Positions 1 to 6,557 of a stretch of 38,918 nucleotides of DNA are shown piece after piece; positions within the stretch are counted from its first letter, which is position 1, and every line of letters starts with the position of its first letter. The notes under the pieces are model-generated. The model did not search any database. It was given only the letters and a program-made list of their open reading frames with translations, and had not been told where the DNA came from. A program made the translations under genes and the position numbers. Where the stretch lies: NCBI GenBank assembly GCA_005779305.1, contig SXJR01000420.1, positions 1 to 38,918 on the forward strand, in the 5' to 3' direction. This DNA is from Myxococcales bacterium (GTDB taxonomy: Bacteria > Myxococcota_A > Polyangia > Haliangiales > Haliangiaceae).

Positions 1-428
1 ATGCCGGCGAAGGCCTCGACGTCCACCCGCGCCGGCAAGCGGACGCGGCCGGCGGCCCCGTCGAGGTGGAGCGGCCGCAGCGCGCCGCTGGTCACGACCA
101 TTCGACCGAGGCGGCCCTCGGCGCGGCCGCCAGCGCCGCGGGCGCGCAGCGCGATGACCAGCGCGTCGCCAGAGGCACGTCCATCGTCGCGTCCATTCGC
201 GTCCGCACCTCCACTGGTGGCCATGCGATCGCCGACGCCGGCGCCGGCGCCGAGCCAGACCAGCCCCTCGGCGCTCAACCACTCGCTGGCGTCGCCCTCC
301 CCATCGAGCACGAGGAGCCCGACCGGCGATGGCGTCCCGGCCAGGGCGTCGCCGCGCAGCCGCAGCGGATCGGCCGCCGCAGGCGCGGCGAGCGCGATCG
401 TCATGGCGAGCGGGGCGAGGTGCCTCAC
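1..428 (-). CDS. Exported protein of the cytochrome operon, N-terminal part (runs off the window)
   Basis: The reading frame stays open to base 1, so only about 142 residues are seen. I chose the GTG at 428 because it overlaps the upstream stop as GTGA and adds a signal peptide (MRHLAPLAMTIALAAPAAA). An internal ATG at 404 would remove most of that signal. After cleavage the chain alternates short hydrophobic and polar stretches (LVLDGEGDASEWLSAEGLVW) and is rich in Gly and Ala, which would suit an outer-membrane beta-barrel or periplasmic beta protein. No haem motif is present in the visible part. As the last visible gene of a multihaem cytochrome operon it could be the porin of an electron conduit, but that is inference from position only. 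Confidence 0.7.
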   Translation of the reverse strand, partial: MRHLAPLAMTIALAAPAAADPLRLRGDALAGTPSPVGLLVLDGEGDASEWLSAEGLVWLGAGAGVGDRMATSGGADANGRDDGRASGDALVIALRARGAGGRAEGRLGRMVVTSGALRPLHLDGAAGRVRLPARVDVEAFAG

Positions 429-706
429 CGCGGCGGCTCCGCGGGCTCGGCGGGCTCGATCCGCTCGGGCGGCAAGAGGACCTCCTTCAGGCTGGGCAGC
501 TGCATCGAATCGCGTCGGATCCGCCGCGATCGGCGGAGATCGACGAGCACCGCCAGCCCGAACATCGCGAACGAGCTGGTGCCGAGTAGCTGGCCCAGCG
601 ACATCGCCAGCATCACCGGCATCGGCGTCGGCACCAGCACCGACCACACCATCAGCGCCAGGGCCACGAGGCTCAGCGCCGCCGAGATACGGAGGAGGCG
701 CCTCAT
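425..706 (-). CDS. Small two-helix inner-membrane protein
   Basis: This 93-residue protein has two hydrophobic segments at about residues 8-28 and 30-55, then a basic stretch (DLRRSRRIRRD) and a Pro/Glu-rich tail (ERIEPAEPAEPPR). The ATG overlaps the stop of the NapC-like gene (ATGA) and follows a strong GGAGGTGA ribosome site. The basic stretch suggests that the tail is cytoplasmic. I do not recognise the family. Its place directly after a quinol-dehydrogenase-type cytochrome suggests a small partner or assembly subunit of that cytochrome. Confidence 0.75.
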   Translation of the reverse strand: MRRLLRISAALSLVALALMVWSVLVPTPMPVMLAMSLGQLLGTSSFAMFGLAVLVDLRRSRRIRRDSMQLPSLKEVLLPPERIEPAEPAEPPR

Positions 707-1350
707 CGGGTCACCTCCTCGATCTCGCCCTCGTCGAGGTGAGGCTTGCTGAACGGGTGCGCCGGTCCGTGGCAGCCGTTGCCCAGGCAGCTCACCGCGT
801 CCCGCCCCAGCTCTTCGACCAGGCTGGCGTGATCACCGACCGCCCGCCAGCCCGGCACCGTCGTCGAGTGGCAGCGCGTGCAGCGATCGTTGGTGAACGG
901 CTCGAGCAGGTGGATGCGCGGCAGCGCCTCCGCCACCGAGAGCTGGCGGAAGTTGAAGGTGTACTCGTAGACGTGGCGGAGCCCACCGATCTTGGTGGTG
1001 ATCGTGCCGAACATCCCGTAGTCGGCGTGGCACGCGTAACAGTTCTCCTTGCCGAAGGCGTCGTTGCGCGAGTGGCGAGCGGCGAGCGACGTGCTCTCGA
1101 GATCCTCCGAGTCCTGCGCGTACGGCGTCATCACGTGGCACGAGCCGCAGAAGCGGCGGGTCTTGGTGGCCTCGTATCCGGCGATGTTGCCGCTGCCGGC
1201 GGTGAGGATGGGGAACACGCCGATGCCGAGCAGGAGGGCGAGCTTGGTGGTGCGCACCAGGGGCGGGCGCGCAACCAGGTACCAGATCAGGATCGGCACC
1301 GAGAGCGCGGCACCGGCGAGCGCGGCCCAGGCGAAGGGATCATGGGGCAT
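703..1350 (-). CDS. NapC/NirT-type membrane tetrahaem cytochrome c
   Basis: This 215-residue protein probably passes electrons from the quinol pool to periplasmic or outer-membrane cytochromes. Two N-terminal membrane segments lie at about residues 7-27 and 35-52. They are followed by CGSCH, CYACH, CTRCH and a C-terminal CX4CH (CLGNGCH), four haem attachment sites in all. NapC/NirT proteins normally have a single anchor helix and four CXXCH sites, so the extra helix and the CX4CH are variations. The start at 1350 has GGAG seven bases upstream. It overlaps the end of the preceding gene (stop 1340-1342), so translation is probably coupled. A longer frame upstream is low-complexity shadow sequence. 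Confidence 0.85.
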   Translation of the reverse strand: MPHDPFAWAALAGAALSVPILIWYLVARPPLVRTTKLALLLGIGVFPILTAGSGNIAGYEATKTRRFCGSCHVMTPYAQDSEDLESTSLAARHSRNDAFGKENCYACHADYGMFGTITTKIGGLRHVYEYTFNFRQLSVAEALPRIHLLEPFTNDRCTRCHSTTVPGWRAVGDHASLVEELGRDAVSCLGNGCHGPAHPFSKPHLDEGEIEEVTR

Positions 1351-2809
1351 CGACGTCTCCATCGAGGTGAGCGCCGCCGGGGATGAACCGGCCGATCGCG
1401 TCCATCGTCGCCGGGTGACAGGTGGCGCAGTCGGTGAGCGCCATCGCGGCGGTGTGCGGCGCGCCGGACGGCGGCACCGCGTGGCAGGTGCCGCACGCGG
1501 CCTCGCCGGTGAATGTCCACCGTGGCTGGGCGGTGCCATGACACCAGGCAGTCGCGCACGTGCCGGGGCCGCGGTCCCAGCCCAGGGCGGCGTTGACCTC
1601 GGCGGGACCGACGCCGTCGAGGTGTCCGGCCGACGTCACCACCACCGGCACCTGGTGACACGAACCGCACGCGATCGGCGCCGACAGCCCGGCGGGGGCG
1701 CGCAGGTGGGCCTGGTGGGCGCCCACGCCGATGGCGGTGGTGAAGACGTTGCCGGACAGATCGCGCGGCGGCGCGGGTGAGTCGGCACCACCGTGGCACG
1801 CGCTGCAGCCGCTGCCGCCCGTGCCGACGTCGGTGACACCATCGAGGTGCGCGGCGCCCGCCGCGGCGCCCGACGGGTGACAGACCGAACAATGATCGTC
1901 GGCGTGCGACGGCGGTGGCGCGCCGTGGCAGCTCGCGCACGACGCCGGTCCCGGCGGATCGCTGGCCCACGACGGTTGGCGCGCCGCGCCACCCGCAGCG
2001 CCCAGCACGTCGCCGTGGCAGTAGACGTTGCGGCAGGTGCCGGCCTCGAACACCGGCGGACCGGCGCGATCGGCGGCGTCGACGGTGAGCTCGGCCAGGC
2101 CGGTCATCTCGACCTCTGCCGGCGGCGGATCGCCCGCGCCCGCGCGTCGAATGTGGCCCTCGTCGTCCCAGGACTGGGGCACGCGGTGACAGGTCACGCA
2201 GGCGAGGCCGGCCGAACCCACCCCGACGTGCGCCCCATGGGCGCCAGTCGTGGGCACGCCGTCGTGGCAGGTGTCGCACGCGTCGGGGCCACGGGCGTGA
2301 CAGCTGGTGCAGCTCGCGTCCGCCGCGCCACCGCCGAAGTCGGCGCCGTGGCAGCCGGCGCACAGCCCCAGGTCCCAGCCGCGGTCGCGCAGCTCGATGC
2401 CGTGGAAACCGGCGCTCGCCGGATCGAGCACACCGGCAGGATGGATCGACGAGTCGAGGTACGTGAGCTCGCAGTCCAGCGCCCAGCGCGCGAGCAACGC
2501 GTGCAGCGCACCCTGTCCCGCGTGCGCCGCGCCGGCCGCGGGAGCTGCCGGATCGATCGCGGACAGGAGCCGGGAGCTCGCGTCACCGGCGATCGCGTTG
2601 GCGGTGTCGTCGGAGCCGGGCCCCAGCGCGCCGAGGTAGGTGGTCAGGTCGTAGCCCACCGCCGGCGTCGCACCGCCGTGGCACTCGGCGCACGGCGCCA
2701 GCGCGGCAGCCACCTCCCGCTGCCACGACGGGCACGCGCCTGGGCCGGACGGCCGCGGCTCGGAGCACGCGGCCATCAGCAGGGTCAAGGTGAGGATCGG
2801 GCCGCGCAC
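1340..2809 (-). CDS. Lipoprotein with 13 haem-binding motifs (CXXCH/CX4CH type)
   Basis: This 489-residue protein starts with a lipoprotein signal (LTLTLLMAAC). I count 13 attachment motifs: eleven CXXCH (CAECH, CAGCH, CTSCH, CDTCH, CVTCH, CASCH, CSVCH, CSACH, CGSCH, CGTCH, CATCH) and two CX4CH (CRNVYCH, CATAWCH). The alternation of CX4CH with CXXCH resembles the repeat family known from Geobacter multihaem proteins. The GTG start lies three bases after the stop of the decahaem gene. The probable role is that of an electron wire in the periplasm or on the outer membrane, linking the NapC-like cytochrome with the OmcA/MtrC-like protein. Confidence 0.85.
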   Translation of the reverse strand: MRGPILTLTLLMAACSEPRPSGPGACPSWQREVAAALAPCAECHGGATPAVGYDLTTYLGALGPGSDDTANAIAGDASSRLLSAIDPAAPAAGAAHAGQGALHALLARWALDCELTYLDSSIHPAGVLDPASAGFHGIELRDRGWDLGLCAGCHGADFGGGAADASCTSCHARGPDACDTCHDGVPTTGAHGAHVGVGSAGLACVTCHRVPQSWDDEGHIRRAGAGDPPPAEVEMTGLAELTVDAADRAGPPVFEAGTCRNVYCHGDVLGAAGGAARQPSWASDPPGPASCASCHGAPPPSHADDHCSVCHPSGAAAGAAHLDGVTDVGTGGSGCSACHGGADSPAPPRDLSGNVFTTAIGVGAHQAHLRAPAGLSAPIACGSCHQVPVVVTSAGHLDGVGPAEVNAALGWDRGPGTCATAWCHGTAQPRWTFTGEAACGTCHAVPPSGAPHTAAMALTDCATCHPATMDAIGRFIPGGAHLDGDVDAP

Positions 2810-2812
2810 GGG

Positions 2813-4996
2813 TTACCGCGCGTGGACCACGGCCACGTCATGGGTCTTGCCGGGGCCGTGGCAGGTCGCGCACGCCTCGGATCCGTTGGCCAGCGTGTTG
2901 AGCATCGCGTGGACCGCGACGTAGGGCTGGTCGTGGCAGCTCGTACACACCGACGACTCGGGCGCGACGCGATAGGTCTGGGTGACGTTCCAGTACGGGC
3001 TCTGGCAGTACAGGTCGGGGTCGCCGGGCGTGGCCGGCTCGGTGCAGGTCAGCTCCTGCAAGATGCTGGGCGCACGGCCCTGCGCCGCGGGCAGGCCGTA
3101 GGTGCCGGGCTGGTGGCACGCGGTGCACTCGGCGCGGGACCGCGGGTAACGGACCTCGCCGAAGTCGTAGATCGTCCCGGCCGGGTTGGTCACGCTCGGA
3201 AGCGGGAAGCCACCGAGGAGGTACGGCTGCGACAGCTCCTCGCCAGCGTGGATCTTGTGGATCATCACCCGGAAGTCGACGCTCTCGGCGAGGACCGTCG
3301 AACCCTCGAAGCGCGAGATCCGTTCGTTGTTGGCGTTCTCCGGGTTGTGGCACATCACGCAGTACTCGGCGCCGCGGCGGCCGCCACCGTGGAAGGTGAG
3401 GTCGTAGTGGCAGCCGTCGCACTTGGCGGGGTCGATGATCGACCGGCGCGGCTGAGCCACGGTGTCGGTCACGGCGAAGGCGCGCATCGGCGACACCGTC
3501 GCGTAGCGCGGTGTCGCGCTGTTGAGCGACGCCTCGATGCCGACCGTGTAGCTGCCGGTCGCGCCGGCCGGGACCGTGATCGTGGCCGGGAAGGTGTAGC
3601 TGAACACGCCCGCCGCCGCGTCGACCGCGGCCAGCGTGCCGGTCGCGCCGCTGCCCTGGATGGTCGTCTGCGCGAACGGGTTGGTGCTCGTGCCCACGGT
3701 CCAGTAGGTCGTGAAGTCGCCGTTGGGGCCGGCCAGGGTGGCGCGGAGCTGCCCGAGCGGCGTGGTGAGGATGTTGCGGGGCTGGCCGTTGGCGGTGACG
3801 CGGAAGGTGAACGAGGGTGACGTGCCGGGCGGGACCGTCGCCATCGGATCGATCGTCACCACCAGCGACTGCGAGGTGTCGAACGTGGAGTCACGGTGAC
3901 TGGCGTCCACCGGCGACACGCCGGTCGTGGCGCCATGGCAGACGCCACACGGCGCGTTCTCCGGCACGCCGTAGGCGTGTCGAGTCTTGCCCGGTGGCGG
4001 AGCATCGACGAAGACCACGTCGTCATGGCAGGAGGTGCAGGCGTCGACCGTGGGCTTCCGTTGCCAGAAGTCGCCCTGGGCGCCGCCGTGGCAGGCGTCG
4101 CAGCGCTCGATCGACTGCGGGAACGTCACGGTCGAGTAGTCGTGGACGGCACCGCCGAAGCCGATGATCTGGTAGGTGCCGCCGGCGACCACCGTCGGCA
4201 GCGCGGCGCCGCGGTGGATCTTGTGGGCCATGACGCGGAGGTCGACGGTGTTGCCGGTGTCGGGGTCGCTGGTCTGCTGGGTGTGGCACACCACGCATTG
4301 ATCGACCGCGTCGTAGCGACCACCGTGGGCCGCGAGCGTGCCGTGGCAGGTGTCGCAGCGCGCGTCGTCGGCGACCTGGCGGGTGACCATGGTGCCGCCG
4401 TCGGGACGGACCGAGCGGACCGAGCGGTCCATGCGGGTGACGCCGTCGACGGTGCGGCTGGCGATCGCGATCACGGTCTGGGTGCGCGCCGCATCGAACG
4501 CGGTCAGCGGCGCGGCGAAGGTGTACCGATAGGTGCCCTGGGTGACGGCGACGGTCACGACGTTGGCGGCCACCGACTCGGTGGTGGCCTGGGTTGCGCC
4601 GCCGACCACACGCGTGGTGTACGCCGTGTACGGACCGGGCTCGCCGGCGCCGTCGACGGCGAGCTGACCGAGCACGAACGAGAGACTCACCGCGCCCTGG
4701 GTCAGGCGACCCTCGCGATCGAGGGCGGCGCCGCCAGCGCCCAGCTTGTCATCGAGCGTGAAGCTCACGATCGCCGAGCCGTTGGCGAGACTCAGGTCGG
4801 TGACCTCGATGTCGACGCCGTCGTCGGTGAACCAGGGCGAAGTGCCGTCGTCCCCTGTCCCCGGCTGCCCGACGGCACCCTCGGGGCCCTCGGGGCCTTG
4901 CTGGCCGTCGGGCCCGGTCGGGCCGGCGGGCCCCGGGGGTCCTGCCGGGCCCTCGCATCCAGCCAGGACCAACGCGGAGACGAGCAGCCTGCGCAT
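2813..4996 (-). CDS. OmcA/MtrC-family decahaem surface lipoprotein
   Basis: This 727-residue protein opens with a lipobox (ALVLAGC), then a short collagen-like Gly-Pro-rich stretch. A beta domain (about residues 45-205) is followed by five CXXCH motifs near 214, 234, 298, 316 and 350, a second beta domain (about 370-515), and five more near 526, 545, 624, 684 and 711. Ten haems in two pentahaem domains, each behind a beta domain, is the OmcA/MtrC plan. Such proteins reduce extracellular metals or other acceptors. I chose the ATG at 4996 because it puts the lipobox at the proper distance; a GTG at 5011 is possible. It is the first gene of the operon and divergent from hemN. Confidence 0.88.
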   Translation of the reverse strand: MRRLLVSALVLAGCEGPAGPPGPAGPTGPDGQQGPEGPEGAVGQPGTGDDGTSPWFTDDGVDIEVTDLSLANGSAIVSFTLDDKLGAGGAALDREGRLTQGAVSLSFVLGQLAVDGAGEPGPYTAYTTRVVGGATQATTESVAANVVTVAVTQGTYRYTFAAPLTAFDAARTQTVIAIASRTVDGVTRMDRSVRSVRPDGGTMVTRQVADDARCDTCHGTLAAHGGRYDAVDQCVVCHTQQTSDPDTGNTVDLRVMAHKIHRGAALPTVVAGGTYQIIGFGGAVHDYSTVTFPQSIERCDACHGGAQGDFWQRKPTVDACTSCHDDVVFVDAPPPGKTRHAYGVPENAPCGVCHGATTGVSPVDASHRDSTFDTSQSLVVTIDPMATVPPGTSPSFTFRVTANGQPRNILTTPLGQLRATLAGPNGDFTTYWTVGTSTNPFAQTTIQGSGATGTLAAVDAAAGVFSYTFPATITVPAGATGSYTVGIEASLNSATPRYATVSPMRAFAVTDTVAQPRRSIIDPAKCDGCHYDLTFHGGGRRGAEYCVMCHNPENANNERISRFEGSTVLAESVDFRVMIHKIHAGEELSQPYLLGGFPLPSVTNPAGTIYDFGEVRYPRSRAECTACHQPGTYGLPAAQGRAPSILQELTCTEPATPGDPDLYCQSPYWNVTQTYRVAPESSVCTSCHDQPYVAVHAMLNTLANGSEACATCHGPGKTHDVAVVHAR

Positions 4997-5159: not shown

Positions 5160-6557
5160 ATGGCCCCTCGCCTGCTCCCGGTCTTCCCGGCCCGCCTCGA
5201 ACAACCGTGCGAGGTGATCGCCGACCACGCCCGCCCTGGTCCTCGCTACACCAGCTATCCCCCGGCGACCCAGTTCTCGGCCCGGTTCGATCCGGCGGTC
5301 GCGACCCGCGAGCTCACCTCCATCGGCGCCGACGACGACATCGCGCTCTACGCGCACGTCCCGTTCTGCTCTCAGCTCTGCTGGTACTGCGGATGCAACG
5401 TCACCGCCACCCGCGATCGCAGCCGCGGCACCGCTTACGTCGACGTGCTCCTGCGCGAGCTCGAGCTGCTCGGCGATGCGTTCTCGGGCAGACCGCGCGT
5501 GGTCGACCTGGCACTGGGTGGCGGCTCGCCCAACTTCCTGGAGATCGCCGACCTGACCCGACTGCTCGCCGGTGTTCGCCGCCACGCGACCATCACCCCG
5601 CACGCCACGCTGGGCATCGAGCTCGATCCGCGCGACACGCGACCCGATCAGATCGATGCCCTGGCCGAGCTCGGCTTCCGCCGGGTCTCGGTCGGGGTCC
5701 AGGACTTCGACGAGCGCGTCCAGACCACGATCCATCGCTTGCAGACCGCGGCCATGACCCGCGCGGTCATCGATCGCGCCCGCGCCCGCGGCTTCGACAG
5801 CGTCAACGTCGACCTGGTCTACGGTCTGCCCGGGCAGACTCCCCAGAGCATCGGCCGCACCCTCGACGAGGTGGTCCGGCTGGCGCCCGATCGCCTCGCC
5901 GTCTTCGGGTACGCCCACCTGCCGCACCTGCGCCCGCACCAGCGCCTGGTCGAGCGGGCCGCGCCGGTGCCCGGCGTGGCCGAGCGCATCGAGTTGCTCC
6001 GCGTGGTCATGGACAAGCTCGCCGACGCCGCCTACGTGCGCGTCGGCCTCGACCACTTCGCCCGCCCCGGCGATCCCCTGGCCCGGGCCAGCGTCACCGG
6101 CCGCCTCGGCCGCAACTTCCAGGGATACGTGGTCCACCGTACCGACCGCCTGATCGGTGTGGGCGCGAGCGCCATCTCCGACACCGGGCACGCCTACTGG
6201 CAGAACCACGTCGACGTCGAGGCCTGGACCGAGGCCGTGAACGCCGGCCACCTGCCGATCGCGCGCGGAGTCGCGCTCGAGCGCGACGACGAGCTACGCC
6301 GCTACGTGATCATGCGCCTGATGTGCGAGGGACGCCTCGAGTTCGCCGAGGTCGAGGCCCGTTACGGCATCGCCTTCACCAGCGCCTTCTCCCGCGAGCT
6401 GGCGACCCTGACCCGCGAGCACGCCGACCTCGCCACCGTCGACCGGACGCGCGGCGCGATCTCCGCCACTCCGCTCGGCCATCACCTCATCCGCAACGTG
6501 GCCGCGGTCTTCGACCGCTACGCCGAGAGCGCGGCCTCGGGATCGCCGTCGATCTGA
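5160..6557 (+). CDS. hemN: Oxygen-independent coproporphyrinogen III dehydrogenase (HemN)
   Basis: This radical-SAM enzyme of 465 residues makes protoporphyrinogen IX without oxygen in the cytoplasm. The N-terminus carries the family sequence GPRYTSYP. The cluster-binding motif is HVPFCSQLCWYCGCN (CX3CX2CXC) near residue 66. GGGSPNF, the DLVYGLPGQTP segment, NYAHLP-like GYAHLP, DHFARP and NFQGY match HemN rather than the HemW/HutW relatives. The length is close to that of the E. coli enzyme (457). The start agrees with the promoter-to-ATG spacing seen through the region. It is divergent from the cytochrome operon and could supply haem for it under low oxygen. The last 40 bases overlap a convergent gene. 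Confidence 0.93.
   Translation: MAPRLLPVFPARLEQPCEVIADHARPGPRYTSYPPATQFSARFDPAVATRELTSIGADDDIALYAHVPFCSQLCWYCGCNVTATRDRSRGTAYVDVLLRELELLGDAFSGRPRVVDLALGGGSPNFLEIADLTRLLAGVRRHATITPHATLGIELDPRDTRPDQIDALAELGFRRVSVGVQDFDERVQTTIHRLQTAAMTRAVIDRARARGFDSVNVDLVYGLPGQTPQSIGRTLDEVVRLAPDRLAVFGYAHLPHLRPHQRLVERAAPVPGVAERIELLRVVMDKLADAAYVRVGLDHFARPGDPLARASVTGRLGRNFQGYVVHRTDRLIGVGASAISDTGHAYWQNHVDVEAWTEAVNAGHLPIARGVALERDDELRRYVIMRLMCEGRLEFAEVEARYGIAFTSAFSRELATLTREHADLATVDRTRGAISATPLGHHLIRNVAAVFDRYAESAASGSPSI

Follow-up and report, generated by a model that had tools for sequence, protein, structure and literature searches.

The locus described here raises the question of whether a soil or sludge myxobacterium encodes, in a single set of genes, a route by which electrons pass from the quinol pool to the outside of the cell. 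It lies at the start of a stretch of 38,918 nucleotides from a Myxococcales bacterium (assembly GCA_005779305.1, contig SXJR01000420.1; class Polyangia, family Haliangiaceae), which was analysed over its whole length and is referred to as the window. Extracellular electron transfer (EET) is well studied in Geobacter and Shewanella, and within the myxobacteria Anaeromyxobacter is the main established case. A preliminary description of the window, made from its letters alone, proposed a quinol-to-exterior route from five genes: a decahaem OmcA/MtrC-type lipoprotein, a lipoprotein with 13 haem motifs, a NapC/NirT-type quinol oxidase, a small membrane protein, and an exported, possibly beta-barrel protein. 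The present analysis establishes that the window holds the 5' part of a seven-gene operon, mtrC–C13–napC–smallTM–barrel–CytM–CytL. In all probability, this operon encodes a porin–cytochrome electron conduit that leads from the inner membrane to the cell surface. The conduit reading is based on gene content, gene order, homology, the fold of the barrel, lipobox motifs, and conservation, from which we infer function and the direction of electron flow. The general type of machine is known from iron-breathing bacteria; the myxobacterial gene set is an undescribed variant as far as the openly available papers searched are concerned, among which no description of the operon in Polyangia was found.

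The operon in the window and its continuation

In the open reading frames of the window, five genes run head to tail on the minus strand from position 4996 to position 1. The letters at the first junction place 3 bases between the stop codon of mtrC and the GTG start of C13. The following genes overlap, C13 and napC by 11 bases, napC and smallTM by 4 (ATGA), and smallTM and the barrel gene by 4 (GTGA). The earlier picture of one overlapping operon is therefore retained for the single run of five genes and corrected at the mtrC–C13 junction. All five genes have dN well below dS against their closest relatives (dN 0.14–0.25, dS 0.37–0.64; for mtrC against locus L070, dN 0.135 and dS 0.525) and are under purifying selection, which together with the conserved gene order indicates that the gene set is not a product of chance. 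Chance matches as the source of the CXXCH motifs are likewise ruled out, by family scores, conservation, and dN/dS.

The window is the entire contig C384 of a genome assembly of 8.08 Mb in 611 contigs (75% complete), and because base 1 is the end of that contig, the operon is truncated by the assembly. A search of the contigs of the same genome with family profiles led to C402, a contig of 7938 bases that carries the C-terminal two thirds of the barrel, then CytM, and then CytL, all in one direction. Along the barrel profile, the window covers approximately positions 7–133 and C402 approximately 145–392. The five conduit parts listed in the preliminary description are all confirmed, as five of the seven genes of the operon. 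Over the seven genes, in operon order, the haem motifs number 10 + 13 + 4 + 0 + 0 + 13 + 27 = 67.

Gene order in relatives

To collect relatives, 284 genomes of the phylum were searched for NapC, of which about 15 gave strong matches (at least 199 bits, the window's own genome included). A search of named genomes added 80 loci, almost all of which bear a myxobacterial label or the older label deltaproteobacteria; these loci were annotated by profiles. The exact order mtrC–C13–napC–smallTM–barrel–CytM–CytL occurs in 11 public loci, mostly from Kofleriaceae-type metagenome-assembled genomes, and rearranged versions are spread across Kofleriaceae, Polyangiaceae, Labilithrix, Sandaracinaceae, and Myxococcaceae. 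The Polyangiaceae and Labilithrix types have napC–smallTM and barrel–CytM–CytL in divergent orientation, with C13 nearby, and in Myxococcaceae a second barrel subtype forms the series barrel–CytM–C13, divergent from napC–smallTM–CytL. Every CytM gene counted in the relatives stands beside a barrel gene on the same strand (56/56). An octahaem lipoprotein, C8, which has a collagen-like stalk and carboxypeptidase-regulatory-like segments, lies near the operon, beside MtrC or replacing it, in nine loci (L041, L042, L052, L053, L084, L086, L097, L132, and L134).

The outer-membrane barrel and CytM

The gene cut at base 1 (positions 1..428, minus strand) contributes a signal peptide and approximately the first 120 mature residues before the contig ends; its open frame (3–428) has no stop codon up to base 1. 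This fragment is 73% identical to the full-length protein of L070 and 59% identical to that of L039; homologues are about 390–410 aa long. An AlphaFold2 model of L070, the closest full-length homologue, was built from a 43-row alignment that included the window fragment and reached a pLDDT of 81.2 and a pTM of 0.77, with about 20–21 long antiparallel strands; an earlier barrel model from 11 sequences had a pLDDT of 56. Compared with outer-membrane barrels by VIA-align, the L070 model aligns with the BtuB/FyuA class of TonB-dependent transporters at Z 18 (rmsd about 4 Å over 330–350 residues) and with AlgE and the Occ porins at Z 16. As judged from this model, the truncated gene encodes an outer-membrane beta-barrel, which the preliminary description had considered possible. 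That the last gene might encode neither a barrel nor a membrane protein, which would have refuted the preliminary proposal, is ruled out by the model and its structural matches. Full-length homologues of both barrel subtypes match no Pfam or NCBIfam family, MtrB/PioB included, and no PDB chain was matched by sequence. MtrB is absent among the structural matches listed for the L070 model, which leaves room for a relation to MtrB.

CytM, encoded on C402 directly after the barrel and in the same direction, is a lipoprotein of about 340 aa with 13 CXXCH motifs. Its homologues, which carry 12–13 motifs, give no match to TIGR03508 (MtrA/DmsE) near the 192-bit cut-off. The CytM and barrel profiles also detect an adjacent pair of a barrel and a 12-haem cytochrome in Anaeromyxobacter oryzae and Anaeromyxobacter sp. 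PSR-1, with E values of ~1e-83 and ~1e-76 for CytM and ~1e-27 and ~1e-31 for the barrel subtype. Two-gene Anaeromyxobacter clusters consisting of a porin and a 12-haem cytochrome of 338–344 aa make up Pcc group IV of Shi et al. 2014, and the A. dehalogenans cytochrome Adeh_3392 increases under Mn(IV)-reducing conditions (PMC4245776). The pair found here is equated with the published Adeh_3392-type pair by matching description and not by accession. Because the barrel and CytM are homologous to a pair that fits the description of Pcc group IV, the core of the conduit appears from sequence comparison to be of the Pcc type, a barrel with a 12–13-haem periplasmic lipoprotein, and not a relative of MtrAB. 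Other Pcc features agree: the barrel is porin-like with about 20–21 strands, where approximately 18–22 are expected, and a multihaem cytochrome gene follows it directly. An MtrAB-type conduit is rejected, as the barrel and CytM match no MtrB or MtrA models. The preliminary description had set the locus apart from mtrCAB by gene order and by the 13-motif component; the difference is upheld and an MtrC-family member is present, while the core is re-assigned to the Pcc type. A second 13-haem CytM-like gene (142 bits) is present on contig C186 of the same genome (8951–12192, minus strand), where it overlaps or adjoins a long uncharacterised open reading frame; the two are possibly a second porin–cytochrome pair.

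The 27-haem cytochrome CytL

CytL follows CytM in the same direction on C402 and is a lipoprotein of about 560 aa with 27 CXXCH motifs. Homologues contain 22–27 CXXCH motifs in approximately 500–600 aa, with a conserved extra His near many of them. Against the PDB, both CytL and CytM match the 12-haem 3ov0, the sixteen-haem 1h29/1z1n, and chain A of 6r2q only as generic c7/c3-type repeats. In loci L070–L149, the N-terminus of CytL is a plain transmembrane (TM) helix in about 25 of 51 proteins and mostly a lipobox in the rest; to judge from these N-termini, the mode of membrane attachment seems to differ between families.

With about 67 haems per operon copy and a CytL whose 22–27 haems make it far larger than known shuttles, the envelope haems might instead store electrons or buffer the redox state, as a capacitor during oxic/anoxic swings, and exchange with the outside would be only incidental. 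A capacitor role has been a matter of speculation for very large secreted cytochromes (PMC11495043). A capacitor would have no need for a barrel, a surface lipoprotein, and a quinol oxidase in one operon, and we consider this explanation highly improbable.

The presumed quinol oxidase and its small membrane partner

The napC gene (703..1350, minus strand) encodes a membrane-anchored tetrahaem cytochrome of the NapC/NirT type with 215 aa, two predicted TM helices, three CXXCH motifs, and one CX4CH motif. Its product scores 34.9 bits against PF03264 (cut-off 24.1), the Met of the haem-1 CXXCHxM motif is kept and is invariant in 16/16 NapC-type sequences, and NrfH (2j7a_C), which matches the NapC family profile at E 2e-6, is the closest solved relative; the assignment to this family in the preliminary description is well founded. 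The protein departs from the canonical pattern of four CXXCH motifs in the NapC/NirT quinol dehydrogenases (CymA, NrfH) at site 4. Among 112 aligned homologues, this site is CX4CH in 84, CX2CH in 19, and CX3CH in 8, and sites 1–3 are always CX2CH. Because the alignment puts the three spacings at one site, CX4CH represents a different spacing at an ordinary haem site, and the series offers a natural set for the study of haem-attachment spacing. The protein is presumed to be a menaquinol oxidase.

The neighbouring gene smallTM (425..706, minus strand) encodes a small membrane protein, as had been described, of 93 aa with two hydrophobic helices, and lies directly downstream of napC in 76/76 loci where this can be seen. 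Its product matches no Pfam or NCBIfam family and is presumed to be an accessory subunit of the NapC-type protein. Conduit clusters with a quinol oxidase have a precedent, since cymA adjoins mtrAB in a few Proteobacteria (PMC6295460). In Anaeromyxobacter, NapC has four plain CXXCH motifs, and in two loci from cultured strains (L096 and L120) napC–smallTM is free-standing and CymA-like, apart from conduit genes.

The NapC/NrfH family usually feeds periplasmic reductases, and with NrfH as the nearest solved relative, the operon could serve respiration of a soluble acceptor (nitrite, sulfite, arsenate, selenium, or metal oxyanions) in the periplasm or at the outer membrane, with the barrel merely a pore. 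However, neither the operon genes of the window nor those of the 11 loci with the same order include a catalytic reductase, the barrel is always paired with a 12–13-haem lipoprotein, and those lipoproteins of the OmcA/MtrC family that are well studied act as terminal cytochromes at the surface. Respiration of this kind is accordingly given little credence.

The presumed surface lipoproteins

The mtrC gene (2813..4996, minus strand, ATG at 4996) encodes an OmcA/MtrC-family decahaem lipoprotein of 727 aa with the lipobox LAGC and 10 CXXCH motifs. It matches TIGR03507 at E 3e-114 with 383 bits (cut-off 209) and the MtrC/MtrF domain PF22113 at E 4e-49. C13 (1340..2809, minus strand, GTG start) is a lipoprotein of 489 aa with the lipobox MAAC, 11 CXXCH motifs, and two CX4CH motifs, and matches TIGR01904 (GSu_C4xC__C2xCH, the CxxxxCH/CxxCH domain) over the cut-off at E 1.5e-16. 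Both lipoproteins had been identified correctly from the letters of the window. By sequence rule, each has a signal peptide and a lipobox; across the loci, the lipobox rule marks almost all MtrC and CytM proteins and most C13 proteins as lipoproteins. MtrC is presumed to be the surface terminal cytochrome and C13 an outer-membrane or surface cytochrome adjoining the barrel.

In MtrC, a collagen-like stretch of about 11 Gly-X-Y triplets comes directly behind the lipid Cys (window 4850–4960), and a similar run follows the lipid Cys of the octahaem C8 lipoprotein in other families (L041, L042, L052, L084, and L086). The Gly-X-Y stretch could be a trimerising stalk. A second, partial OmcA/MtrC-type match is found on contig C308 of the same genome.

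A proposed route for electrons

The path from quinol to the outside that was proposed at first is supported by the NapC-type oxidase, the barrel, the lipoboxed MtrC and C13, and the two further multihaem lipoproteins. To go by its family, the NapC-type protein with its small partner would take electrons from menaquinol at the inner membrane. The 27-haem CytL would then carry them across the periplasm, which is the least certain step. CytM, because it is invariably paired with the barrel and is homologous to the cytochrome of the Anaeromyxobacter barrel/12-haem pair, is proposed to dock in or on the barrel from the periplasmic side and to conduct electrons across the outer membrane. At the surface, C13 and MtrC may pass them to minerals, humics, shuttles, or other cells, and the likely use would be anaerobic or oxygen-limited respiration, or redox balancing.

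A tentative extension is an unbroken chain of haems that links the quinol pool with the cell surface, in which CytL spans the periplasm and docks on barrel-bound CytM with no diffusing shuttle. Under this hard-wired arrangement, and just as speculatively, a helix would tether CytL to the inner membrane in roughly half of the relatives, and a lipid anchor would hold it in the remainder. With its 27 haems, CytL turns the idea of a fixed periplasmic wire into a testable question; the hard-wired path, if true, would be a distinct EET architecture common in predatory and soil Myxococcota.

Several observations weigh against the conduit reading. The lipoprotein and TM calls come from simple motif and hydropathy rules, and because the loci were gathered through NapC, its presence in them is built in and the locus counts are silent on systems without NapC. 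Several NapC matches, in Anaeromyxobacter, lie away from any conduit gene, and NapC could also serve other reductases. C384 and C402 do not overlap; the gap between them costs about 17 barrel residues, and the ~110 bases at the very end of C402 (7830–7938, minus strand) hold what we take by eye to be an ISL3-family transposase fragment fused into the barrel frame. The end of C402 may be chimeric, or a real insertion may interrupt the barrel in this strain. The joined transposase-like reading and the lack of overlap would fit a system that is decayed or interrupted here, but every other frame is open, purifying selection acts on the genes of the window, clean barrel sequence with no element runs up to the break on the window side, and repeats break contigs in a fragmented assembly of this completeness. 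Decay or interruption is thus regarded as unlikely.

Comparison with known conduits

The Pcc group IV clusters of Anaeromyxobacter share with the present operon a barrel and an adjacent 12–13-haem cytochrome of about 340–350 aa. They differ in that they hold two genes only, without an outer-membrane cytochrome and with napC–smallTM elsewhere, whereas the myxobacterial operon unites barrel and CytM with NapC, MtrC, C13, and the 27-haem CytL.

The MtrB barrel has 26 or more strands. The window-type barrel, in contrast, has about 390–410 aa and 20–21 strands and gives no MtrB/PioB match in Pfam; the periplasmic cytochrome is not DmsE/MtrA by the NCBIfam cut-off, and C13 and CytL are additional. 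A decahaem MtrC-family protein, a NapC/NirT-type oxidase, and one barrel are nevertheless shared with Shewanella MtrCAB with CymA and with the cymA-mtrAB of Ferrimonas, Rhodoferax, and Sideroxydans (PMC6295460). Compared with CymA, the window NapC differs in its CX4CH site 4, its two predicted TM helices, and its small partner protein.

The Geobacter ExtABCD/OmcB clusters (PMC6148476) resemble the operon by description in a 12-haem periplasmic cytochrome, an 18-strand barrel, and multihaem lipoproteins and differ, again by description, in having no quinol oxidase, MtrC-family member, or 27-haem protein; the sequence feature in common is the TIGR01904 CX4CH domain of C13, which is named after Geobacter. 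ImcH of Geobacter is likewise an inner-membrane quinol oxidase related to NapC; it has extra TM helices and, in homologues, one atypical CX3CH motif (PMC6295460), but it has three TM helices and 6–10 haem motifs as opposed to two predicted TM helices and four motifs here.

If the conduit reading is correct, a large group of bacteria regarded as aerobic predators and degraders, most of them uncultured members of Kofleriaceae, Polyangiaceae, and other families, would join the candidate electroactive bacteria. Carriers of the operon come from soil, sediment, groundwater, and sludge, and napC–smallTM, barrel–CytM, and CytL provide a marker set for such conduits.

Genomic neighbourhood and the direction of electron flow

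A HemN-like radical-SAM gene lies divergently upstream of the operon (window 5160–6557), as it does in the three closest relatives, fitting a high haem demand at low oxygen. Beyond it are universal-stress, CBS-domain, and P-type ATPase genes, and the region looks like a low-oxygen/stress gene island. The HemN-like gene also bears on the direction of flow, in that it suggests anaerobic or micro-oxic expression. The anatomy of the conduit does not fix direction, and the same parts could run in reverse, taking up electrons from Fe(II), other cells, or cathodes into the quinone pool. A two-way mode of action has been proposed for CymA-type proteins, which in Fe(II) oxidisers are encoded next to mtoAB (PMC6295460), and an aerobic chain probably exists in this organism because its genome has an alternative complex III (ACIII)-like cluster. 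Among the relatives, the physiology is known for Anaeromyxobacter, which reduces Fe(III) (PMC4245776); together with the HemN-like gene, this makes reversed flow improbable. The ACIII-like cluster (contig C489, 1019–6142) consists of a pentahaem cytochrome with large molybdopterin-type and NrfD-like neighbours.

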